Source: Alphaproteobacteria bacterium (GTDB taxonomy: Bacteria; Pseudomonadota; Alphaproteobacteria; Micropepsales; Micropepsaceae). Taken from it: DNA of 64,000 nt. Positions 7,893 through 51,592 of this stretch are shown here, piece by piece. The stretch is taken from the NCBI GenBank assembly GCA_013697055.1, contig JACCXK010000101.1:1-64000 (forward strand), in the 5' to 3' direction. Every line of letters begins with the position of its first letter. Within the stretch, counting starts at the first letter, position 1. A model generated the notes under the pieces. The model was not told the DNA's origin. It did no database searches and saw nothing but the letters and a program-made list of their open reading frames with translations. A program made the translations under genes and the position numbers.

Positions 7893-9830
7893 CTAGTTCG
7901 ACAGCGTTCGAGCGGCGTGTTGGGTGAATGCCCTCTGCGCGGACGCGGCATGTTCCCGCTCCATAAAGCTTTCAAACATCCAGATCAGCCATAGGGCGCG
8001 GCTGTTGTCGGCGCGACCCGCCTGGTGCTCGCCAATCAGCCGGCGAACCGTAGCGATGTTCAGATATTCCGCCGCGGAAAACTCGTCCTTCAGCTTCTGC
8101 TCCAGGAAGGTGCCCAACGCCCCCCGGAACCATTTCGCCAGCGGCACCGAAAAACCCTGCTTGGGCCGATGAAGCGTGTTGCGCGGAACGAGCTTTTCGA
8201 ACGCGCGCTTGAGCAGGATCTTGCCTTCGCTGCCCCGGCGGTTTAGCGCGGACGGCAGCCCCAGCGCCCAGTCGACGAAAGTGTGATCGAGCATCGGCAC
8301 CCGGACCTCCAGGCTGTTGGCCATCGCGGTGCGGTCCACCTTGGTCAGGATGTCGCTGGGAAGCCAGGTCTTGAGGTCGACATATTGCGCCCGGGTGATG
8401 GGATCGTCGGTCGGCGCGGCGCCGGCAAAGGCATTGAGAACCTCAACGGCATGATATCCTTGCAAAGACCGTTTCAGCCCGTCGGAAAAAAGTGCGTTCC
8501 GGGCATCGTCCGCCAGGACCGACACGTTCAGGAAATACCCCATGCGGGAATCGACACTGAGCTCATGGAACGTGTGGCGGGCGCGCAGAAAGCGCGGCGC
8601 ATTGTCAAACTGGGGATAGAAGTTTGCCAATGTCCCGAACAGGGGCCCGCGAATGGCGGCCGGCAGCAATCGTCTGAGATTTTCTTCGCGGGCGTGAAAG
8701 CCGTAGCGCCGGTATCCCGAAAACAGCTCGTCCCCGCCATCACCGGACAGCGCCACCGTGACCGACTTGCGGGCCAGCTGCATCAGGCGAAAGGTGGGCA
8801 TGGCTGAACTGTCGCCAAACGGTTCGTCGAAGATCGCCGGCAGGCGCTCGACCAGGTCGGTTTCGTCGCCTTGCATGCGGTCGATGATGTGGTGCGCGGC
8901 GCAGTGCTTGGCGACCAGGCTGGCATATTCGGTTTCGTCGAATTCGCGGGAATGAAACCCAATGGTGAAAGCGGTCACCGTATCGGGCGCGGTCCTGGCC
9001 ATCAGCGCGGTCACGCCGCTGGAATCGACGCCGCCCGACAGAAACGTTCCCACCGGGACGTCAGCGACCAGTTGGGCTTTCACGATCCGTTCGAGCCGTT
9101 CCAGCAGGGCGTCGTCCAGCCGGGACATCTCGTGATTGTCGATGGCAGCAGGGGCGGGATCCCAATACCGTTGCACGCTGGGCTGTCGTCCGCGCCGGAT
9201 GAGCATCGTAGTCCCGGCCGGCATTTGTTTCACGTTCGCATAGATGGTGCGGGGTTCGGCGATATAGCCGAGGGCGAAGAACTCTTCCACGGCGCAGGGA
9301 TCGATGGTCCTGTCGAGAAGAGGGGAGGGCAGAAGCCCTTTGATTTCCGATGCGAAAACCAAACTCTGGTCCGGAAGGATCGCATAATAGAGCGGCTTCT
9401 CGCCCAGCCGGTCACGCGCCAGGAAAAGCGTTTCGTCACGCCGGTCCCACAGCGCAAAGGCAAACATGCCCGTCAAATGGTTGACGCAGTCCGGGCCCCA
9501 TTCGGCCCAGGCTTCGAGGATGACCTCGGTATCGGAACGGGTTTTGAAGGAATGCCCGCAGCTTTCGAGTTCGGCCCGGAGCTCACGGAAATTGTAGATC
9601 TCGCCGTTGAAGATCAGGCAGGCGTCGCCATTACCGCTGTGCATCGGCTGATCGCCCGTGACCAGATCGATGACGGCCAGCCGGCGATGGCCCAAACCGA
9701 CACCGGGTTCAAAATGAAAGCCGTCCCCGTCCGGCCCGCGATGGCGGATGGCGTCGTTCATGGCGCGCACCAGGGCGCGGTCAGGCAGGCGAGGCGCCTT
9801 CAGGTCAAACCAGCCGGAAATCCCGCACAC
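7893..9830 (-). CDS. Asparagine synthase-like amidotransferase, XrtA/PEP-CTERM associated
   Basis: GTG start followed by Cys2 (MCGISGW), class II glutamine amidotransferase domain, SGGVDSS PP-loop; stop/start overlap with exosortase gene. Confidence 0.9.
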   Translation of the reverse strand: MCGISGWFDLKAPRLPDRALVRAMNDAIRHRGPDGDGFHFEPGVGLGHRRLAVIDLVTGDQPMHSGNGDACLIFNGEIYNFRELRAELESCGHSFKTRSDTEVILEAWAEWGPDCVNHLTGMFAFALWDRRDETLFLARDRLGEKPLYYAILPDQSLVFASEIKGLLPSPLLDRTIDPCAVEEFFALGYIAEPRTIYANVKQMPAGTTMLIRRGRQPSVQRYWDPAPAAIDNHEMSRLDDALLERLERIVKAQLVADVPVGTFLSGGVDSSGVTALMARTAPDTVTAFTIGFHSREFDETEYASLVAKHCAAHHIIDRMQGDETDLVERLPAIFDEPFGDSSAMPTFRLMQLARKSVTVALSGDGGDELFSGYRRYGFHAREENLRRLLPAAIRGPLFGTLANFYPQFDNAPRFLRARHTFHELSVDSRMGYFLNVSVLADDARNALFSDGLKRSLQGYHAVEVLNAFAGAAPTDDPITRAQYVDLKTWLPSDILTKVDRTAMANSLEVRVPMLDHTFVDWALGLPSALNRRGSEGKILLKRAFEKLVPRNTLHRPKQGFSVPLAKWFRGALGTFLEQKLKDEFSAAEYLNIATVRRLIGEHQAGRADNSRALWLIWMFESFMEREHAASAQRAFTQHAARTLSN

Positions 9831-11377
9831 TATGTCGCTCCATCATGGGACGGCGTGGCGGGCATATCGGCGCGATCCAGGGCCAGGGACAGGTCAACCG
9901 CCGAAACCTGACGGGCCAGCCGCGCGCGTGCATCCTCTACCGGACCGTCTATCGGGGTCGATAGGGCGACAAAGGCCTGGCTTTCCCGGCCCTCGAAAAC
10001 GGCTCTGGTCTGGAGCAATTTCACGGCCATCGGGCTGATCGTGAAGCGGTCATTCACCCAGTAGGTCGACCAGACAAGGCGTTTTTCATAACCCGAATTG
10101 ATGACCGATTCCCGGAACCGGATGTTTTGCTGTCCCTGGGGCGTCGTGCCCGCATCGTTTGTGACCCGACTCCAGACCGTGTTGTCCCAAGCCTGGTTGA
10201 GATGCGCCGTCATGGTATGTCCGGTCCGCGGCCGGGAATAATAGCCGACAAAAAGATCAATCACCGGCGTCGCGGACGCAGTCGACAACATCAGCTGAGC
10301 GTCCGCCCCCGGAAAGTATGGCGACCAATTGCCCGTGTTGCCCTTTTCCCGCCAGCCGCCGGGCTGCAGATAGGCGGCGACCGCGGCAAGATTCGGTTGG
10401 GCGCCGCGGGAATTGTGCCACCACGCAAAGGCGGGACCGGTGGAGATCAGCACAGCCGCAATCGCCACCACCATCGCCAGCTGCTTGAATGTATCAGGCT
10501 TGGGATTCGGCCTGGGCACAAAAGTGGCGTCGTGCACGTCGTCGCGGAAAAACGAACCCAGAAGAATCAGGATTAGCAGGATGGCGACATTGAAGCCCCA
10601 TCCATAGACGATGTGATCCGCGCCGGCGCCATACTCGTTGTTGGTAAAATGCGCGATCAGGATGATGCCCACGCAGCGCAGCCCGTTGCCAATCAGCGGC
10701 ACCACCACCGAAGCGAATAGGAACAGCGCGACCTTGTGAATTTTGCGAAACACAAGATAGGAGAACAGCACGCCCAAGGTCACAGTCGCGACCAAGAAGC
10801 GCAAGCCCGCGCACGCTTCGGCAATTTCAAAGCGCCCATTGGTGAGTTCGAAGGATGTGCCTTCGGTATAGTGCGGGATGTGGAGCAGATTGAGGGAAAT
10901 ATCGACAAAGCGGGTCGCAAATCGCTGCATCGGGGCAATCAGATATTCGCCCGTCGGAACCAGGAACAGCAGGAACAGGATCGGAAACCAGATGACTCGC
11001 AGCACTTCGACCCCCAGAAGCGTGACGATCATCACTTGAATGAGCGCGACCACGGCATATTGGCGGACCTCGTTTATCGAGGACAGTTCTCCCAGCCACC
11101 ACAGCACGAGCAAAAACGGGACGAACCACAGAAAGCGGGGCGCCACCGCCGGTTTTATCATCGCCAACGTGTCGCGCTTTTCCCAGACCAGCCAGGCAAC
11201 GATCGGAACGATCAGAAAACAATGGGAATAGGTGGGGGAAACAATCCAAACCTGCAGCGCCGCAGAAAGCGCATCGTGAAATGCCAGAGCGATCAGGACG
11301 ATGATCGTGGCCAGCGCAATGCCATGGTCCCGCCACGGCTTGGCATTGCCGGGGCCTGCCTCCGCAATCGCTGTCAT
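9830..11377 (-). CDS. xrtA: Exosortase A fused to C-terminal EpsI-like domain
   Basis: EACAGLRF with downstream GNGLRCVGIILIAHF catalytic Cys/Arg motifs in a polytopic protein; C-terminal soluble region resembles EpsI; start ATG 11377. Confidence 0.9.
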   Translation of the reverse strand: MTAIAEAGPGNAKPWRDHGIALATIIVLIALAFHDALSAALQVWIVSPTYSHCFLIVPIVAWLVWEKRDTLAMIKPAVAPRFLWFVPFLLVLWWLGELSSINEVRQYAVVALIQVMIVTLLGVEVLRVIWFPILFLLFLVPTGEYLIAPMQRFATRFVDISLNLLHIPHYTEGTSFELTNGRFEIAEACAGLRFLVATVTLGVLFSYLVFRKIHKVALFLFASVVVPLIGNGLRCVGIILIAHFTNNEYGAGADHIVYGWGFNVAILLILILLGSFFRDDVHDATFVPRPNPKPDTFKQLAMVVAIAAVLISTGPAFAWWHNSRGAQPNLAAVAAYLQPGGWREKGNTGNWSPYFPGADAQLMLSTASATPVIDLFVGYYSRPRTGHTMTAHLNQAWDNTVWSRVTNDAGTTPQGQQNIRFRESVINSGYEKRLVWSTYWVNDRFTISPMAVKLLQTRAVFEGRESQAFVALSTPIDGPVEDARARLARQVSAVDLSLALDRADMPATPSHDGAT

Positions 11378-11447
11378 TGTCCGGGCCTGAATTTGATGAC
11401 TTCGGGCACAATCGCCCAGCCACAGTGAGCCCGCGCTGTGCTCCGGT

Positions 11448-12425
11448 TCATATTCCGGATACCCCGTCGATGTTATGTGCGGCGGCGATGCTTGACCATT
11501 TGAAATCGTCAAGCAGCCGTTCCAGCCGACCATAGGTACGGCCGAGATTCAGGTAATGGCGAATGCGGGTTTTGGTGGATGTGCCCGCGACGCGGGGCTG
11601 GCCAGGATCTATTTCCCAGGGATGGAAATAGAAGGTGCAAGGCTGGTGTTCCTGGTTCTGCACCGTCTTGAGATTGCGCTTGAACACCGCATAGGGAAGC
11701 ATGCGGAAATATCCGCCGCCGCCCGCCGGCCAGTTGCGCCCGAACATCCGCACCGTGGTGACCGGAATTTCCATGAACTTGCTGTCGGCAAAGGGATAGA
11801 AGGCAAAACGCGGCTGTTCCGGGATGCCGTAGAGATCATGCGGGATGGGATGCGTGCTGGAACTGTAGCGGTAGCCGGCTTCCTCCAGCACGTTCAGCGC
11901 CCAGAGATTGCCGCGTGTGATGGAAAAGGACGTGGCGCGGTAGCCATGCACGGCTTTGCCGCCGATGTCCTCCAGCAGTTCCTTGGCGCGCCGCACATCG
12001 TCCGAAAATTCGGTGCGGGATTGGCGGTCGGCGCGGAAATGCGCCAGGCCGTGCGATGCCAGCTCATGGCCGTTATCAACAATCCGTCGAACAAGCTGCG
12101 GATAGCGCTTGGCCACCCAACCCAGTGTGAAGAACGTCGCGGTCGTCTCTTTGCGTGCGAACAGTTCGAGAATACGGTCGACATTGGCTTCGACCCGGCA
12201 TTCCCTGCTGTCCCAGTCGGCGCGATTGATGTGCGGGAAAAAAGCCTCGACCTGGAAATAGTCTTCCACATCGACGGTCATGGCATTGCGCTTGTTATCA
12301 GGGCGAAGGGCCACAGGCCTTTGGCGCCATCCGATGATCGGATCGGCTTCACCCATGACCTGGCGCGCTGGCGTTGCCGCTGGCTGATTCATCGAGACCG
12401 CATCCATGGGATGCATCGCAGGCAA
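11448..12425 (-). CDS. XrtA-system polysaccharide deacetylase
   Basis: MTVDVEDYFQVEAFF, TATFFTLGWVAKRYP, GHELASHGLAH NodB motifs. Confidence 0.9.
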   Translation of the reverse strand: MPAMHPMDAVSMNQPAATPARQVMGEADPIIGWRQRPVALRPDNKRNAMTVDVEDYFQVEAFFPHINRADWDSRECRVEANVDRILELFARKETTATFFTLGWVAKRYPQLVRRIVDNGHELASHGLAHFRADRQSRTEFSDDVRRAKELLEDIGGKAVHGYRATSFSITRGNLWALNVLEEAGYRYSSSTHPIPHDLYGIPEQPRFAFYPFADSKFMEIPVTTVRMFGRNWPAGGGGYFRMLPYAVFKRNLKTVQNQEHQPCTFYFHPWEIDPGQPRVAGTSTKTRIRHYLNLGRTYGRLERLLDDFKWSSIAAAHNIDGVSGI

Positions 12426-38091: not shown

Positions 38092-38940
38092 ATGAACGCA
38101 CTAATTCGCAATGCCTTGACCAATCCCGCTGCAAACAATCTGCGCGGCGCAGACGAAACCTTGCTCGCTCAGCACGACCGTTATTTTTCTACGGTTCTTG
38201 CTGACTCGCCTGCTCTGATGAACGCGGCTCATGCATTGCGGTTTCAAGTCTATTGCCTCGAACGCAAGTTCGAAGATGCCGATGAGCACCCGGGCGGTCT
38301 CGAGGTGGACGCCTATGATGCGCACGCAATTCAGGGCGTGCTGTTCCATCGTCCCACGGGTGGCGCCATGGGGTCCGCGCGCTTGATACTTCCGGTATCC
38401 GACATAGAGGACAGCCTTCCGGTTATGTCGCTGCTCCGGTCGAGCTTGATGGACCTGTCCGATTACGTCAATCCGAACCAGTGCATAGAGGTTTCTCGTT
38501 TCGCGATCTCGAAGGAATTCCGCCGCCGCAAGTCGGATGACCTGGATGCTGCCCTGCCTACCCGCGCAGATTCATACCGCGAAACCAATCTGGCGTTTCT
38601 GAGTCTCTTGCAGTTTGTCTTGCGTGAGAGCGTTAAGCGCAAAATGTTCTTTTGGACAGCCGTGATGGAACCGAAATTCCTGCGCCTGTTGGCGCGCATG
38701 GGCATTTGCTATACCCCCATCGGGCCGATGGTCATGCATCACGGAATTCGGCAACCATGCTACTGCTACCTGCCGGACATGCTGGAGAATGCGCGCCGCC
38801 TGCAACCGCAATGTTGGGAAGTGCTTACCGACGGCGGTGTTCTTTATGAAGAACTCCAGGCCAATAAGGGGCGCTTGGTCCTCCCCCAGAAGAAAAAGTT
38901 TGATGTTGGGGGCCGCCCCCATTCACGCTTGGCAATCTAG
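38092..38940 (+). CDS. PEP-CTERM/exosortase system-associated acyltransferase (GNAT/autoinducer-synthase-like)
   Basis: HALRFQVYCLERKFEDADEHPGGLEVDAYD...GSARLILP...CIEVSRFAISKEFRRRK. Confidence 0.88.
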   Translation: MNALIRNALTNPAANNLRGADETLLAQHDRYFSTVLADSPALMNAAHALRFQVYCLERKFEDADEHPGGLEVDAYDAHAIQGVLFHRPTGGAMGSARLILPVSDIEDSLPVMSLLRSSLMDLSDYVNPNQCIEVSRFAISKEFRRRKSDDLDAALPTRADSYRETNLAFLSLLQFVLRESVKRKMFFWTAVMEPKFLRLLARMGICYTPIGPMVMHHGIRQPCYCYLPDMLENARRLQPQCWEVLTDGGVLYEELQANKGRLVLPQKKKFDVGGRPHSRLAI

Positions 38941-39044
38941 CGGGCTGAGTTCTTACCGGCGAAATAAACTATAGACAGCCTGTATGCTACGCTCGCCGAG
39001 CGACTCGGCATAATCGGTCGAAAGCAGGCCGCGAGGATCAGGCA

Positions 39045-39950
39045 GTGAGCGGGAAGTTTTCTTACGAAGAGGCGTTTGATCGAAACCTGGGCTGGTTCAC
39101 GCAGAACGAGCAACAGGATTTTCGCGCCAAAACTATCGCCATAGCGGGGATGGGTGGCGTTGGCGGGGTTCATCTGCTGACGCTTGCGCGCCTGGGTGTT
39201 GGCGGCTTCCACATCGCTGATCTGGATACGTTCGAGCTGGCCAATTTCAATCGCCAAGTCGGCGCAACTATGTCCACGCTGGGGCAGGACAAAACATCCG
39301 TCCTGGCGCGCATGGCCAGCGATATCAATCCGCAGATGCGGCTAAAAGAGTTTTCGAATGGAATAAATGAGGGGAACATCCGGGAGTTTCTCTCCGGGGT
39401 GGATCTCTTCATCGATGGGTTTGACTTCTTCGCCGTCGACATCCGGAGGAAGACTTTCAAGCTGTGCAGAGAGCTTGGCATACCGGCCGTAACGGCAGCT
39501 CCCATTGGTATGGGCGTTGCGTTCCTGGCGTTCACGCCAGACGGGATGTCCTTTGAGGAATATTTCCGCTTCGACGGCAAATCTGATCTTCGTCAATATA
39601 TAAATTTCCTGCTCGGCCTGGCGCCGAATGGCATGCACCGCGCCTATCTCGTCGATCCCACGCGTGTGAACATCGCGAAAAAGAAAGCGCCATCCACCAT
39701 TGTAGGCGTGCAGCTTTGCGCGTCATTTACCGCGGCCCAGGTCGTGAAGATGCTGTTGAAGCGCGGAGAGGTGCGGCCCGCGCCTTACCACTATCACTTC
39801 GACGCCTATCTCAATAAGTTCCGGACATTCCGCAGTCCCGGAAACAACGGCTTTCTACAACGGCTGAAGGGCAATGTCGTAGAACGTCAAATCAAAAAGC
39901 AATTGGGATCTGCAGGCGATGACAAATCAGGCCTCGTCCAGGGCGGTTGA
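39045..39950 (+). CDS. ThiF-family (E1-like) adenylyltransferase
   Basis: IAIAGMGGVGGVHLLTLARLGVGGFHIADLDTFELANFNRQVGA nucleotide-binding motif; no CxxC zinc motifs visible. Confidence 0.88.
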   Translation: MSGKFSYEEAFDRNLGWFTQNEQQDFRAKTIAIAGMGGVGGVHLLTLARLGVGGFHIADLDTFELANFNRQVGATMSTLGQDKTSVLARMASDINPQMRLKEFSNGINEGNIREFLSGVDLFIDGFDFFAVDIRRKTFKLCRELGIPAVTAAPIGMGVAFLAFTPDGMSFEEYFRFDGKSDLRQYINFLLGLAPNGMHRAYLVDPTRVNIAKKKAPSTIVGVQLCASFTAAQVVKMLLKRGEVRPAPYHYHFDAYLNKFRTFRSPGNNGFLQRLKGNVVERQIKKQLGSAGDDKSGLVQGG

Positions 39951-41004
39951 ATCAGTCCTGGATATCGCGCGCTGGGCTCCGAGTGGGGACAACGCGCAGC
40001 CCTGGAGTTTTCGCGTCAGGGGCGGTCGTGATGTCGAAGTTCTTGTCCGGCGCACAAACCCCAACATTTATGAATATCGCCAGGGCGAGCCCACCCTTCT
40101 GTCGGCGGGTGCGCTGCTGGAAAATATGGAAATCGCCGCGCCCGCATTTGGATTGAAGGCAAACTGGCGGTTTGCCGGCTCGGCGGACGGCATTGATCAC
40201 ATTGACGTGCATTTTTCCGACGCTGATACCATTTCGGCGCCAGATCTTTTTGGCGAGATACTACGGCGCTCTGTGGACCGGCGCCCGTTCAAGATGCGCG
40301 CTCTTACCAGCGAGCAAAAGAACCGCCTCGCTGGAGCGTTGGACCAGGATATCGAGATTCAATGGTATGAAAGCTTGCCCGATCGCCGCGAGATTGCGGC
40401 GCTCAGCGGGCTGGCCACGAAGGTCCGCCTGACCATTCCGGAAACCTTTGCGGTCCACCGCGGGATCGTGGATTGGAAAAACAGGCACAGTGAGCAGGGC
40501 ATTCCTTCTCGGGCCCTGGGGATAGACCCGCTGACGTTGCAGCTCACGCGCTGGTCCATGGGAAGCTGGGGCCGCACACAATTTATGAACGCCCTCGGTG
40601 CGCCCACCTTTGCCTCTTTGCAGATGGACCTGTTGCCCGGGTTGTTTTGCGGGTCCTATTTCGCCATCCGCCTGAAGCGGCATTTCGACGGGCCGGACGC
40701 GGCCTTGGTGGAAACCCTACGAGCGGGGCAAGCGATTCAGCGGTTCTGGCTTATGGCAACCCAGCTAGGTCTGGTGATGCAACCCTGCGTTGCAATACTG
40801 GCATTCTGGGTGTATGCCGCAGCCGGCCGGGAATTTACCGCCAGCCCCAAGGCGCAAAAGATCGCCCATAAGCTTGCCTTGGGCGCTGACGCGATGTTCG
40901 GCCGGAACGAGGATATCGTTTTCTTGGGGCGGACCGGTTGGCCGCGCAGCACTTCCCAGGGCCGCTCCACAAGGCTGCCCTTGGCCCAGCTAATGGCCCG
41001 TTGA
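39919..41004 (+). CDS. Nitroreductase-family protein
   Basis: LDIARWAPSGDNAQPWSF FMN-binding signature; overlaps the thiF-like ORF by 32 bp. Confidence 0.82.
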   Translation: MTNQASSRAVESVLDIARWAPSGDNAQPWSFRVRGGRDVEVLVRRTNPNIYEYRQGEPTLLSAGALLENMEIAAPAFGLKANWRFAGSADGIDHIDVHFSDADTISAPDLFGEILRRSVDRRPFKMRALTSEQKNRLAGALDQDIEIQWYESLPDRREIAALSGLATKVRLTIPETFAVHRGIVDWKNRHSEQGIPSRALGIDPLTLQLTRWSMGSWGRTQFMNALGAPTFASLQMDLLPGLFCGSYFAIRLKRHFDGPDAALVETLRAGQAIQRFWLMATQLGLVMQPCVAILAFWVYAAAGREFTASPKAQKIAHKLALGADAMFGRNEDIVFLGRTGWPRSTSQGRSTRLPLAQLMAR

Positions 41005-41110
41005 GGCGCGAATAAGCACATTTCCAAAAGAGCCTGAATTCTGTAAATTAGGCTTACACTTTCAGAAACTGGACCGAGATGGACCATTGATTCTGATGGG
41101 AAAATTCACT

Positions 41111-41126
41111 TGGCATCGTACTTGCT
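41111..41126 (+). promoter_or_regulatory. Predicted sigma-54 (RpoN) -24/-12 promoter
   Basis: TGGCATCGTACTTGCT vs consensus TGGCAC-N5-TTGCW; GG-N10-GC spacing exact; 70 bp upstream of the PEP-CTERM start. Confidence 0.75.
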
Positions 41127-41195
41127 TTATATCTCGCCAAGCACCGGATGGCGTTGGGTCAGCTGGTTCGTCCAATATGCCGATGGAGAAATGAA

Positions 41196-42035
41196 ATGAA
41201 CTTGTTGAAAAAGACACTGCTCGCCGCCGGCGCCAGTGCCCTGTTAGCGGTGATGGGTTCGGGCGCTGCCGTCGCGTCCCCTATTTTCACCATCAGCCCG
41301 AATGTCATTCCCGGGATTTCGGGCTACGCCCCTTTCCAGGCAACTGATTTTTCTTATGCTTCTAATGCGACCGTTACTCAAACCGGCGCCACGACTCAAA
41401 CAGAAACCGGGTATGCTTATCTTACAGCCTTCGTGAATAACGGGCAGGGGTTGGGCATCAACGCCACGGGACTTGTTTCGCCTGTTAGTACTCTCGGCTT
41501 AGCGGATACTTACCAGGCATATTTGCGTTTTACCGCGACCGTTTCTGGCGTGACTGGCTTTGGCCCGGGCAACGTGGGAACCATCACAGCGTTCAATTTC
41601 AGCCTGTATGCGGATCCTAATAGGGACACGACTTTCGGTACGACTGGTTCTGTCACTGGTAATACCGGTAATGACGTCCTGTTGGCGACTGGAACGCTCC
41701 AGAGCGGCAGCGCGGGGTTTCAGACCACCACTGGTGCGCCGACGTTCAACGCCATCGACTTTTTCTCCGTGGTCAACGTAGCCGGCAATGGCCCGTATTT
41801 CAGCCAGCCTAACCCGTTCTACAATTTGGTGCTCACGTCCACCACAGCCGGCAGTGCTCAGAACGTTACTGTCACTGGCAGTGGTATTGGCGCTACCGCG
41901 GTTATTACCGGCATCACCGGTACGGCCAACTTCGCCTCTACCCCAGTACCTGAACCGATGACACTATCGTTGTTTGGTGTTGGCCTGGTCACTGCGGGCG
42001 CTCTGCGCCGCAGGGCAAAGGCCAAGAAGGCCTAG
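41196..42035 (+). CDS. PEP-CTERM sorting domain-containing secreted protein
   Basis: Signal peptide MNLLKKTLLAAGASALLAVMGSGAAVA; C-term VPEPMTLSLFGVGLVTAGALRRRAKAKKA. Confidence 0.9.
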   Translation: MNLLKKTLLAAGASALLAVMGSGAAVASPIFTISPNVIPGISGYAPFQATDFSYASNATVTQTGATTQTETGYAYLTAFVNNGQGLGINATGLVSPVSTLGLADTYQAYLRFTATVSGVTGFGPGNVGTITAFNFSLYADPNRDTTFGTTGSVTGNTGNDVLLATGTLQSGSAGFQTTTGAPTFNAIDFFSVVNVAGNGPYFSQPNPFYNLVLTSTTAGSAQNVTVTGSGIGATAVITGITGTANFASTPVPEPMTLSLFGVGLVTAGALRRRAKAKKA

Positions 42036-42762: not shown

Positions 42763-43932
42763 TCAATAGCGACCGGACGTGTCTGTTCTCAAGGCGACCT
42801 CGCTGCGGTGCCGGCTTACTGGCTTATTTCCGGAAGGGGAGGCCGGATCGACATAGCGATCCAGATGCACTTCTGCCGTCATGGAAATGCCGGCCCGCAG
42901 CGGGGTTTTCAGAAGCTCATCCTGATCCAGCGCGATACGGACCGGCAGACGCTGCACGACTTTTATCCAGTTGCCCGTGGCATTTTGCGGGGGAATCACT
43001 GCAAAGGTTGCCCCCGTTCCGCCGCCCACGCCTTGGACGTGGCCATGAAAGATCCGGCTCGACCCATAACTATCGGACTTGAGCGTCACCAGCTGTCCCG
43101 CCCGGATTTCGGTGATTTGGCTCTCCTTGAAGTTCGCATCCACGAACATTTCCCTCGTGGGCACGATCGTCATGAGTTCCGATCCGGGGGCAATCTTCTG
43201 GCCGATCTGAGCGCGTGATTGTGCGACGATCCCGTCGACCGGCGCCCGGATAAAGGTACGTTCCAGCCTCAACCTAGACCGGCGAAGATTTACCTCCGCT
43301 CCCAGAATGTCCGGATTAGATTCGGCAGCCTCCTGTCTGATCACGGCGCGTTTTGCCGCCAGCTGCTGTTCCGCAACGGCGAGGGCGTATTTTGCCGCAT
43401 CAAGAGAGCTTTGCAAATTCGAAATTTCTTCCGCCGAAACGACACCAGGCTGCCGGATGCTGGTTCGTCTGCGCAATTGTTGTTCCGCCAGCGTCACCAG
43501 CGACTGTTTGGCCAGGACATTGGTTTCTGCCGCTCTTGTTTCGGCGACTTCCTGTTCGACGCGCCGGTAAGCGCCCTCATACGCGGCCCTCGCCGCGTCG
43601 AAATCCAACTCGGCGTCCTTGGGGTCCAGGATAACCAGGACATCGCCCTTGTGAACATATTGCGTATCGTGAACCCTGACAGAACCGATCGTGCCATCGA
43701 TCTGGGGCGTGACTTGCGCAAAGACCGCGCCGACATAGGCGTCGTCCGTGGAGACGATTGGGGGAGCTGCCAGCCACTCATAAAGCGCGAACCCAATCCC
43801 GGCAGCGACAGCAGTCGAGAAAAAGCCTTTCAGGAGCTGAGCGCGCAGCCATCTGCGTGCCCCCCCAGCTTCCCGCAAGGCAGACGTTCCGGCGCCGAGG
43901 CCCCGGCTCAGAGTGCCGTCCAGACTCGTCAT
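42763..43932 (-). CDS. HlyD/EmrA-family membrane fusion protein
   Basis: TM then PPIVSTDDAYVGAVFAQVTPQIDGTIGSVRVHDTQYVHKGDVLVILDP; biotinyl-lipoyl-like fold; start ATG 43932. Confidence 0.88.
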   Translation of the reverse strand: MTSLDGTLSRGLGAGTSALREAGGARRWLRAQLLKGFFSTAVAAGIGFALYEWLAAPPIVSTDDAYVGAVFAQVTPQIDGTIGSVRVHDTQYVHKGDVLVILDPKDAELDFDAARAAYEGAYRRVEQEVAETRAAETNVLAKQSLVTLAEQQLRRRTSIRQPGVVSAEEISNLQSSLDAAKYALAVAEQQLAAKRAVIRQEAAESNPDILGAEVNLRRSRLRLERTFIRAPVDGIVAQSRAQIGQKIAPGSELMTIVPTREMFVDANFKESQITEIRAGQLVTLKSDSYGSSRIFHGHVQGVGGGTGATFAVIPPQNATGNWIKVVQRLPVRIALDQDELLKTPLRAGISMTAEVHLDRYVDPASPSGNKPVSRHRSEVALRTDTSGRY

Positions 43933-44122
43933 ATTCTCTTTTCTGGGAGTCATAACGGCGCCGCTTGCGCTCGACCGAATCACCCCTCCGGTAATAAAAT
44001 TACCAGAAAGTCCCTTGAACTTCAGGAATTGGCAAAACGCCCAAAAACCAGCGCAATATCGGCTGCTGGCAGGGATTCGCGGTGCCCAACGCCAGCTTCT
44101 TTGGGGGCTGAGCATCACGTTC

Positions 44123-45652
44123 ATGGACCAGAGCAGGCTCCCCCCGCTCCCCATGGAGCGTACCAAGCTGGCGCTTGCGATCTTCGTCCTGTCGCTGGCG
44201 ACCTTCATTGTGATTCTCGATACCACGATCATCAACGTGGCGGTCCCCCACATTGCGGGAGCTTTCGCAGCATCACCCAGCGAAGGCACATGGGTGATTA
44301 CGTCTTATGCGGTCGCTGAGGCCTTGACCGTTCCGGTGTCGGGCTGGCTTGCGAACCGGTTTGGCATCGTAAAAGTACTGACAGTTTCGCTGTTAAGCTT
44401 CGCGTTGTTTTCAGCACTATGCGGCCTGGCGTCCACCCTCGAGATATTGATCCTGCTTCGCATTCTGCAAGGATTGAGCGGGGGGCCGCTGATACCGATA
44501 TCCCAGACATTGATCATGCGCATAGCGCCTCCCGCCAAGCTGGAGACAATGATGGGCCTGTGGATGATGACCAGCATTGTGGCGCCGGTTTTGGGGCCGA
44601 TGCTGGGCGGCATCCTTGCCGACACGATTGGCTGGCGCTGGGCTTTTTATCTCAATGTTCCGATCGCTGCCTCATGCGGCATTTTCGGCTATTTCCTGTT
44701 CAGAGATTGGGAAACGCAAGTCCAGAAGTACGCAATAGATTTTATCGGCTTGGCTCTGCTATGCATTTGGGTGGTCGCTTTTCAGATCATGCTGGATACA
44801 GGCGAAAACCATGCCTGGTTTCAGTCCAATTACATTTTAGCGCTTCTCATCGTCAGCATAACGGCATTTTTTTTGTTCGTGATCTGGGAGATAACAGACA
44901 ATTATCCAATCGTAGACCTGCGCGTGCTCCGGCATCGGGGCTTTGCTCTTTCTTCCCTCACGCTATTCTTTGCCTTCGGTGCATTTTTTGCTTCGCTTAT
45001 ATTGCTGCCACTATGGTTGCAGCTGGGCATGGGGTACACCGCCACGACAGCCGGCTACGTCCTGGCCCAGCAGGGATTGCTGGGTGTACTCGCCGCACCT
45101 TTGGCAGCCTACCTGATGAAGAAGGTCGACTCCCGTTTTCTGATGTCTGCTGCCTTGATGGTCCTCGCGGCGGCGATTTTTTCCCGGTCCAATTTTGCGA
45201 CAACGATCGGTTTGGAGCAATTTCGTCTGCCGCAACTTGCTATTGGCATTGCGCTTCCTTTCTTCTTCGTTCCAATCGTAACAACCTCGCTTCAGTTCGC
45301 ACCTCGAACAGAAACCGCCGCGGCATCCTCCATTATCAATTTCTTACGCACCCTGGCAGCGGCGATAGCAACCGCCGCCGTCGTCAGCGCATGGAGCCGG
45401 GAGACCATTACCAAGCACGCTGCGCTAGTCGAATTTCAGTCCAATTCCGGGTCATACATCCGGCGAATGACTCAAAACGGTCTTTCTCACGGGGGTGCGC
45501 TTCAAACGCTGGACGCGCTCTCCTGGCAACAGGCGATGGTATTGGCTGTCAATGACGTGTTCATATTCCTTAGTCTCATATTGGCGCTTACCGCCGCTGG
45601 GATATGGTTGCTTCCCAGACTTGCGCCGGCACACGGCCCCGTTTTGCACTGA
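44123..45652 (+). CDS. DHA2-family MFS efflux transporter (EmrB-like)
   Basis: ATFIVILDTTIINVAVPHIAGAF...SEGTWVITSYAVAEALTVPVSGWLANRFG; divergent from EmrA-like gene. Confidence 0.88.
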   Translation: MDQSRLPPLPMERTKLALAIFVLSLATFIVILDTTIINVAVPHIAGAFAASPSEGTWVITSYAVAEALTVPVSGWLANRFGIVKVLTVSLLSFALFSALCGLASTLEILILLRILQGLSGGPLIPISQTLIMRIAPPAKLETMMGLWMMTSIVAPVLGPMLGGILADTIGWRWAFYLNVPIAASCGIFGYFLFRDWETQVQKYAIDFIGLALLCIWVVAFQIMLDTGENHAWFQSNYILALLIVSITAFFLFVIWEITDNYPIVDLRVLRHRGFALSSLTLFFAFGAFFASLILLPLWLQLGMGYTATTAGYVLAQQGLLGVLAAPLAAYLMKKVDSRFLMSAALMVLAAAIFSRSNFATTIGLEQFRLPQLAIGIALPFFFVPIVTTSLQFAPRTETAAASSIINFLRTLAAAIATAAVVSAWSRETITKHAALVEFQSNSGSYIRRMTQNGLSHGGALQTLDALSWQQAMVLAVNDVFIFLSLILALTAAGIWLLPRLAPAHGPVLH

Positions 45653-49659: not shown

Positions 49660-50445
49660 TTATGCCTTCTTGCTCTTGCGGCGGCGTATCGCGCCTGCAC
49701 CAACAAGACCAGCCGCAAACAGCGAGATAGTCAGCGGCTCAGGAACTGCCGCAGCAGCAGGATCGAAATTATATGTCGTCGCATTGATCGTGTAGGCGTC
49801 CACGTTGCCGTCAAAGGTGGGCTGGCCGCTGCCGGCTTTGAAAAGGTTATCGACAGCCAAAAAGCTGTTACGGTCCAGGAGGGCTGAAGCCTGCGCAAAG
49901 GTGCAATAGTTGCCAGTGTTTAGATAACAATTGTCCCCAAACAGCGTGTGGCTCTTGGACAAAGTCCACGCAGCACTAGTTCCTGTTGCGTCCCAATTCT
50001 GCCAGACATTATCGACTACGGTTCCTAACAGACCGGGATCGAAAACGAGGCGACCCCCATAAGTGGTGCCTTTAAAGAGGTCGAACTGCAATGTCGGTGC
50101 AGACCCAGATCCCAGTGTCGATGTGGTGACGAAAGTTGCATACGAGAGATTTGCAAAACTGCTCACCGCAACAGACGAGGAGAAGATCTGAGTAAGCGTC
50201 TCGCTTGATGCCGCGTTATTCACCAAGAACTGCGCGCTGCCAATACCAAGCGGTGGAGATGATGGCCCCACCTCGAAGCCACCCGAAGCGTTCGTGTTTG
50301 GGGCGTTATCCAGGTTGCTGAAGGACCAGCCGTTGAGGCTAGTCGGGGTCACATTGATTACAGCCGCGGACGCTGGGCCCGCCGCAATTCCTGCCAGAAC
50401 GACCAGCGACGCCATGAACAGCGACGGTTTCACGAAATTTCTCAC
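49660..50445 (-). CDS. PEP-CTERM sorting domain-containing secreted protein
   Basis: GTG start after GGAGG; signal peptide FMASLVVLAGIAAGPASA; C-term VPEPLTISLFAAGLVGAGAIRRRKSKKA. Confidence 0.9.
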   Translation of the reverse strand: MRNFVKPSLFMASLVVLAGIAAGPASAAVINVTPTSLNGWSFSNLDNAPNTNASGGFEVGPSSPPLGIGSAQFLVNNAASSETLTQIFSSSVAVSSFANLSYATFVTTSTLGSGSAPTLQFDLFKGTTYGGRLVFDPGLLGTVVDNVWQNWDATGTSAAWTLSKSHTLFGDNCYLNTGNYCTFAQASALLDRNSFLAVDNLFKAGSGQPTFDGNVDAYTINATTYNFDPAAAAVPEPLTISLFAAGLVGAGAIRRRKSKKA

Positions 50446-50501
50446 ATTTCCTCCGAGTACGGTTTGTGCAACTAGGTTAATCAACCGAGCTTGTGACATT
50501 A

Positions 50502-50517
50502 AGCAAGAATTGGGCCA
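50502..50517 (-). promoter_or_regulatory. Predicted sigma-54 (RpoN) -24/-12 promoter
   Basis: Minus strand TGGCCCAATTCTTGCT, one mismatch to TGGCAC-N5-TTGCW; 57 bp upstream of the GTG start. Confidence 0.7.
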
Positions 50518-51592
50518 GGCCACTGGGCCTCACTTTTTTCTATTTGGCTGCGTCATGATGTAAGAATTATTGACAGAAAATCGAGGGAGCGGAGCCGGTG
50601 GGGCATGATGTCCTGCGGATAAGGTTCGCAAGCAAATCTTGAACTTGGCCACCCGAGCTGTGCCGGCGACACAGCGGCGTCGCCAATGACTGCCATGCGC
50701 CCCTCAAACGCCTCAGCCAAATGTCTCTCAGTACCATATCGGACTATCACTGGTTAGTTACAGGGCGGGTCTTGGTGATGGCCTCATATAAGGAAACCAG
50801 CACCAGGGATCTGCTCGTTAGTTGGAAAGGAAGTTCGAGCAGAAGCCTGTCTGCCCGAGGGGCGAGGGTTGCGTCGCCCAGCGTCACAGGCCTGATCAAC
50901 TACCGGATGACACCTATTGGCGGAGGCCGTCAGTGACAATGGCCGCGCCATTCGAACATGAGACCCACCTTGGCTGGTTACCCACACCGAAACGCCTTGG
51001 CACCTGAGCAGGGTTCCCAAAGGTGAAGGGAGGATGGGTCAAGTTTTTTGGTGAAGAGGCGACGGAATCTGGCAGGTCGCTACAATCCGCCGTAAGCGCA
51101 AGGATAGGCCAAGCTACTGTGATCGTTGATGACCGAAGAACCCCAGTTCTAGACCTAGTCTTGGGGGGGTATAAAACGTGTTTTCTCACTGCCCCTAAAA
51201 GTGTCTCGCGGGCTCTTTTGTCTCTGAAATAGACGAGCAAGTTGTCCTCAGGATGATGGATTAGAACCCCAGTAGCGAACCTTTTAAATAGGCCTGCAGT
51301 AAGGGCTTAGCGTTCGCCGCCAAAAACCTCTAAAAATCCCGGAGACAAGGAGAATCCGCGCAAACGCTGGAAAACGACAAAAAAGTGCAAATGGTCCCGA
51401 ATTACGGCCTCTGCGGCCCCCGAGGGAGAGGCCCAAAATTCGACGCGTCACGGGCGTCGTTTGGTAGTCGATGCCCACCCTTGGGTTGGGGCCTAAACCC
51501 GCTCTGACCAAGGTAGTCCTCGCCTTGCCCCATGCCCTTGAGGAACTGCCCTGAATAAGTACGGGGCAGGGTCTGCCCCCTCCCACAAGGCA

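Follow-up and report, generated by a model that had tools for sequence, protein, structure and literature searches.

The window, a stretch of 64,000 nucleotides from an alphaproteobacterium of the Micropepsaceae (contig JACCXK010000101.1), carries on its forward strand a trio of enzyme genes followed by a gene for a PEP-CTERM protein. Gene 1 (positions 38092-38940; 282 amino acids) encodes an acyltransferase of family TIGR03694, gene 2 (39045-39950; 301 amino acids, GTG start) an E1-like ThiF protein, and gene 3 (39919-41004; 361 amino acids) a protein with a nitroreductase fold. Exactly 32 bp (39919-39950, forward strand) are shared by genes 2 and 3, an arrangement that recurs in the nearest relative, locus L003. 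The open reading frame at 41148-42035, also on the forward strand, belongs to the PepA flocculation family (NF033554, floc_PepA, 133.5 bits against a cut-off of 80) and is referred to here as pepA. A first-pass annotation of this DNA had described the four genes as an acyltransferase, a ThiF-family protein without CxxC motifs, an FMN nitroreductase joined to it by the 32-bp overlap, and a PEP-CTERM gene, and all four descriptions are borne out. The trio adjoins an XrtA/PEP-CTERM exopolysaccharide locus (about 4767-36894) that comprises genes for exosortase A (XrtA; 9830-11533, reverse strand; TIGR03109, 273 bits, cut-off 208), PrsK, PrsR, PrsT, a FemAB-like protein, a chain-length determinant and an export protein.

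In profile searches the product of gene 1 scored 190 bits against TIGR03694, the family of PEP-CTERM/exosortase-associated acyltransferases (cut-off 112 bits); it also matched Pfam Acetyltransf_5 and reached the FeeM N-acyl amino acid synthase model exactly at its cut-off of 27.0 bits. Gene 1 is predicted to encode an acyltransferase of the N-acyl amino acid synthase type, in the role of TyzA, OxzA or NasY. A class-wide search for the acyltransferase returned mainly GNAT noise below the cut-off, with 2 of 190 above it.

Gene 2 matches NF006077 with 396 bits (cut-off 266) and PF00899 with an E-value of 1e-37. The only cysteines in its product are C141 and C225, and zinc-binding CxxC pairs are absent. 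Invariant in 40 relatives are the glycine-loop residues G35, G37 and G40 as well as D61, N69-R70-Q71, K83 and D127; by these motifs the adenylation site is intact, including the motif aspartate, and D127 probably corresponds to Asp217 of TrzS, a correspondence read from the motif rather than from a direct alignment. The AlphaFold model (pLDDT 91.5) has E. coli ThiF, AclA and MoeB as top fold matches, with PaaA and MccB also among the best. Closest by sequence among solved structures are TcdA enzymes. TcdA is an E1-like enzyme which cyclises N-carbamoyl threonine, i.e. an N-acylated amino acid, on tRNA. This chemistry is close to that proposed for gene 2, whose product is a predicted ATP-dependent N-acyl-amino-acid cyclase in the role of TyzB or of the N-terminal part of TrzS.

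The product of gene 3 belongs to the nitroreductase family PF00881, with NF047509 and NF005901 as its best NCBIfam matches. The score against NF047509 (Acg family) is 101 bits, under the cut-off of 199, while the match to NF005901 (Rv1355c family) has an E-value of 1.5e-24. The AlphaFold model (pLDDT 93) has as its top fold match 2ymv, a mycobacterial Acg homologue (E=5e-13), which is likewise the nearest structure reported for the oxidase domain of TrzS (PMC12856293). On sequence and model we predict a flavin-dependent oxidase of the Acg/Rv1355c type, acting as a desaturase in the role of TyzC or of the C-terminal part of TrzS. Direct sequence searches of the PDB gave no match for the acyltransferase or for the oxidase, and a search of plasmids for oxidase relatives that carry an annotation returned two weak matches, one of them labelled 'ThiF family adenylyltransferase'.

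Genes 2 and 3 are collinear on the single profile NF005901, which represents Rv1355c, i.e. TrzS: gene 2 covers profile positions 90-225 and gene 3 positions 371-696. The three genes are clustered in the window, and in relatives ThiF and oxidase are also found fused into one open reading frame. We read the trio as a pathway for acyl-oxazolones (azlactones) or N-acyl-dehydro-amino-acids, with a probability of roughly 85%. What we observed in this analysis is family membership, intact active-site motifs, gene order, fusions and a genome-wide association. The statement of the first-pass annotation that no function had been assigned to such a trio is incorrect, as the acyl-oxazolone pathway has already been assigned (PMC10404671; PMC12856293; PMC12479983).

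The chemistry that we propose for the trio is borrowed from these published relatives, and the characterised OxzB, TyzB and TyzC were compared with the trio through family profiles, not sequence to sequence. TyzABC of Mycobacterium tuberculosis (Rv2336, Rv2338c, Rv2337c) makes C12 tyrazolone (PMC10404671) and, like the trio, consists of three separate genes for an N-acyltransferase, a ThiF-like cyclase and a nitroreductase-fold oxidase. Unlike the trio, it is mycobacterial and adjoins mmpL9, and PMC10404671 mentions no exosortase context. TrzS (Rv1355c) was shown to cyclise and desaturate N-acyl tryptophan, yielding oxazolones termed tryptazolones (PMC12856293). The TrzAS system (Rv1356c, Rv1355c) resembles the window in the collinearity of ThiF and oxidase on the Rv1355c profile but differs in that the two are fused, the acyl chains short and the host actinobacterial. 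A further known oxazolone pathway, OxzAB, comes from Pseudoalteromonas rubra (de Rond et al. 2021, cited in PMC10404671); by that account it shares with the trio its three functions and a proteobacterial host, whereas OxzB is a fusion in place of the genes overlapping by 32 bp.

In Massilia kyonggiensis, Thalassotalea and Stieleria, which produce N-acyl dehydrotyrosines, there are clusters with the same set of genes, and these have been put forward as the clusters behind stieleriacines, thalassotalic acids and kyonggic acids (PMC12479983). The stieleriacine clusters share with the window genes for a NasY-type synthase, a ThiF protein and a nitroreductase, and that of S. maiorica contains a PEP-CTERM gene as well, as noted in 2020 (PMC7293339); the Stieleria clusters differ by methyltransferases, none of which is found among the trio genes. 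Because no oxazolone was seen, the role of ThiF in such clusters has been called enigmatic (PMC12479983). Since the stieleriacine, thalassotalic and kyonggic acid producers gave only N-acyl dehydrotyrosines and no oxazolones, the final product of the trio may be either an oxazolone or an N-acyl dehydroamino acid.

In the pathway that we propose, the product of gene 1 would N-acylate an amino acid, probably an aromatic one, with a fatty acyl group. The gene 2 enzyme would close the resulting N-acyl amino acid into a ring in an ATP-dependent reaction, its substrate not being a ubiquitin-like protein, and the gene 3 enzyme, using FMN and O2, would introduce an alpha-beta double bond, either ahead of ring closure or following it. 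Later opening of the ring may give an N-acyl dehydroamino acid. As to the exact product and its role, we infer a lipid-like molecule that is probably envelope-associated or secreted and that would serve surface or biofilm life together with the XrtA/PEP-CTERM system. The small acylated lipid or signal envisaged in the first-pass annotation thus holds in outline, whereas nothing was found in support of its other suggestions, tailoring of a peptide (RiPP) or modification of the PEP-CTERM protein.

Among 43 related loci (counts taken by reading the locus table), ThiF and oxidase are fused in eight (L005-L010, L015, L054) and lie beside or near each other, unfused, in 13 more. On the ThiF tree, a quick tree with five long branches, the ThiF protein of the window groups with two other alphaproteobacterial forms encoded by separate genes (support 99), and this group adjoins three fused forms (support 96). 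By this grouping, gene fusion and separate but overlapping genes are alternative arrangements within a single close lineage, and the occurrence of both there supports a shared job for ThiF and oxidase. Some of the related loci call for comment as records. In L013 and L004, long open frames on the opposite strand or extending upstream overlap the ThiF genes, probably by chance in G+C-rich DNA. L021, whose record bears the title Labilibaculum sp. (Bacteroidota), is likely a mis-binned contig: its ThiF protein clusters tightly with the one from Neptunomonas isolate OB1 (L030), and both apparently stem from a single project. L024, from a record titled Rhodospirillaceae MAG SAT126, is almost identical in gene order and ThiF sequence to Alteromonas portus (L023), which likely reflects contamination or mis-binning.

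One might argue that the acyltransferase and the ThiF/oxidase genes are independent neighbours, namely a plain N-acyl amino acid synthase next to an unrelated redox pair. Compatible with such a reading, the acyltransferase and a ThiF-oxidase-PepA group lie on different contigs in another genome of the same genus (G580), and several XrtA genomes possess the acyltransferase but no ThiF. We nevertheless regard it as improbable, given that no more than 10 kb separates the acyltransferase from ThiF in 33 of the 43 related loci, that the acyltransferase is present in 14 of 16 ThiF-positive genomes, and that published pathways link it with ThiF and oxidase.

The oxidase family is missing genome-wide in 9 of these 16 ThiF-positive genomes, eight of which carry the acyltransferase. 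Correspondingly, a number of loci (L016, L020, L023, L028, L030, L049-L053, L056, L060, L061) have ThiF without a nearby oxidase, the acyltransferase being no more than 10 kb away in each of them, and wherever the genome of an oxidase-less locus was tested the oxidase family was absent altogether. The oxidase-less state is scattered on the ThiF tree in a way that needs several changes, as judged from the quick tree with its long branches. A Pfam scan of the genes around the oxidase-less loci revealed sugar and envelope genes, a protease and a patatin, and no obvious replacement oxidase. Because the oxidase is missing in 9 of 16 ThiF genomes, the ThiF enzyme can apparently serve without desaturation; the gene content suggests that oxidase-less genomes would yield oxazolones that stay saturated, or would have another use for the ThiF enzyme.

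Across 399 genomes of Pseudomonadota, the ThiF family was found above cut-off in 16, and 14 of these possess an exosortase, compared with 63 of the 399 overall and with 49 of the 383 other genomes (Fisher p=1.5e-10, uncorrected for kinship). ThiF and exosortase are no more than 50 kb apart in 10 of the 14 genomes that have both. An XrtA-associated or PEP-CTERM gene is likewise present in about three quarters of the 43 related loci, although some of the TPR matches among them may be general TPR proteins. Within the genus of the window, ThiF occurs in 2 of 19 genomes, both with XrtA, and a third genome has XrtA alone. The co-occurrence with exosortase that had been put forward for examination in the first-pass annotation is hence positive, and from the linkage counts the families of the trio are therefore not unlinked to XrtA, yet most XrtA genomes are without the trio. 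For the acyltransferase family, the association with exosortase systems, which the same annotation had mentioned, was already published: N-acyl amino acid synthases adjoining PEP-CTERM/exosortase genes were described by Craig et al. 2011, as cited in PMC7293339. As cited there, that study concerns the synthase and, like the window, presents an acyltransferase beside an exosortase system; the association of ThiF and oxidase with exosortase was measured in the present analysis. None of the papers covered by a literature search names PEP-CTERM, ThiF and nitroreductase together.

Transcriptional control of pepA is known to be RpoN-dependent in Aquincola (PMC9850573). In the window, a sigma-54-like promoter (TGGCATCGTACTTGCT; 41111-41126, forward strand) with one mismatch to the consensus lies upstream of pepA, whose true start is probably at 41196 (signal peptide MNLLKKTLLAAG...), downstream of this site, and not at 41148. 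For a second PEP-CTERM gene (49660-50523, reverse strand), the likely start is preceded at a distance of about 75 bp by a sigma-54-like site (TGGCCCAATTCTTGCT; 50502-50517, reverse strand), so that both PEP-CTERM genes of the window are preceded by such sites. In a scan with weights set by hand from the known consensus, a site was present at 26 of 32 PEP-CTERM genes of related loci versus 1 of 40 acyltransferase genes, a score that about 5% of random stretches attain. Upstream of the acyltransferase gene of the window no sigma-54/PrsR-type site was found (score 10, reached by 84% of random stretches). A loose GG-N10-GC scan was uninformative (1042 matches, 1033 expected), and a scan for sigma-70 promoters and terminators gave nothing above chance. 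As the PEP-CTERM genes have sigma-54 promoters and the trio does not, co-regulation of trio and pepA by this route is not supported; by the pattern of sites, pepA is an adjacent gene under a promoter of its own, and membership of the trio in the pepA regulon is not demonstrated. Beside pepA, an EmrA/EmrB-type efflux pair is encoded at 42763-45652, and the same pair directly follows the trio in L003 (11975-14834). It is a possible exporter of the trio product; near related loci other than L003 the pair was not found.

The separate promoter of pepA also bears on the idea that the trio tailors a peptide (RiPP) or directly modifies the PEP-CTERM protein or exopolysaccharide. The fold of the gene 2 product is also that of E1-like RiPP enzymes, with AclA, PaaA and MccB among its best matches, and PEP-CTERM genes are nearby. 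However, no precursor peptide gene was noticed in a search that was systematic for open reading frames of at least 90 amino acids, and the sigma-54 promoter of pepA is absent from the trio; we thus consider tailoring unlikely. Least credible of all is gene 2 as a canonical thiamin/Moco sulfur-carrier activator with unrelated neighbours, an outcome that the first-pass annotation had set against its own proposal and that we reject: although the ThiF/MoeB fold and adenylation motifs are present, gene 2 has no zinc CxxC motif and scores far under the cut-offs of the canonical equivalogs (80 bits against 275 for TIGR02356; 55 bits against 377 for TIGR02355), fusions to an oxidase occur among its relatives, there is no space for a ThiS/MoaD gene between the trio genes, and the sole other ThiF-family gene of the genome, located elsewhere, is of MoeB/ThiF type with zinc-type CxxC motifs.

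Within the acyl-oxazolone reading it is tempting to speculate, as a long shot, that the oxazolone, instead of being an end product, serves as an activated acyl donor: hydroxyl or amino groups on exopolysaccharide or on XrtA-processed surface proteins would open its reactive ring, and the matrix would thereby be lipidated. If so, a saturated oxazolone would do likewise in exosortase bacteria without the oxidase, and the travelling of the pathway with the exosortase locus would be explained.

Our study makes a modest addition to what was known of such pathways, consisting of counts that tie the ThiF family to exosortase and of the oxidase-less variant. The identification corrects annotations that name such proteins thiamin or molybdopterin enzymes. 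With a ThiF-like cyclase family that travels with exosortases across Pseudomonadota, surface-protein sorting and aggregation become a concrete setting in which to seek the natural role of acyl-oxazolones.
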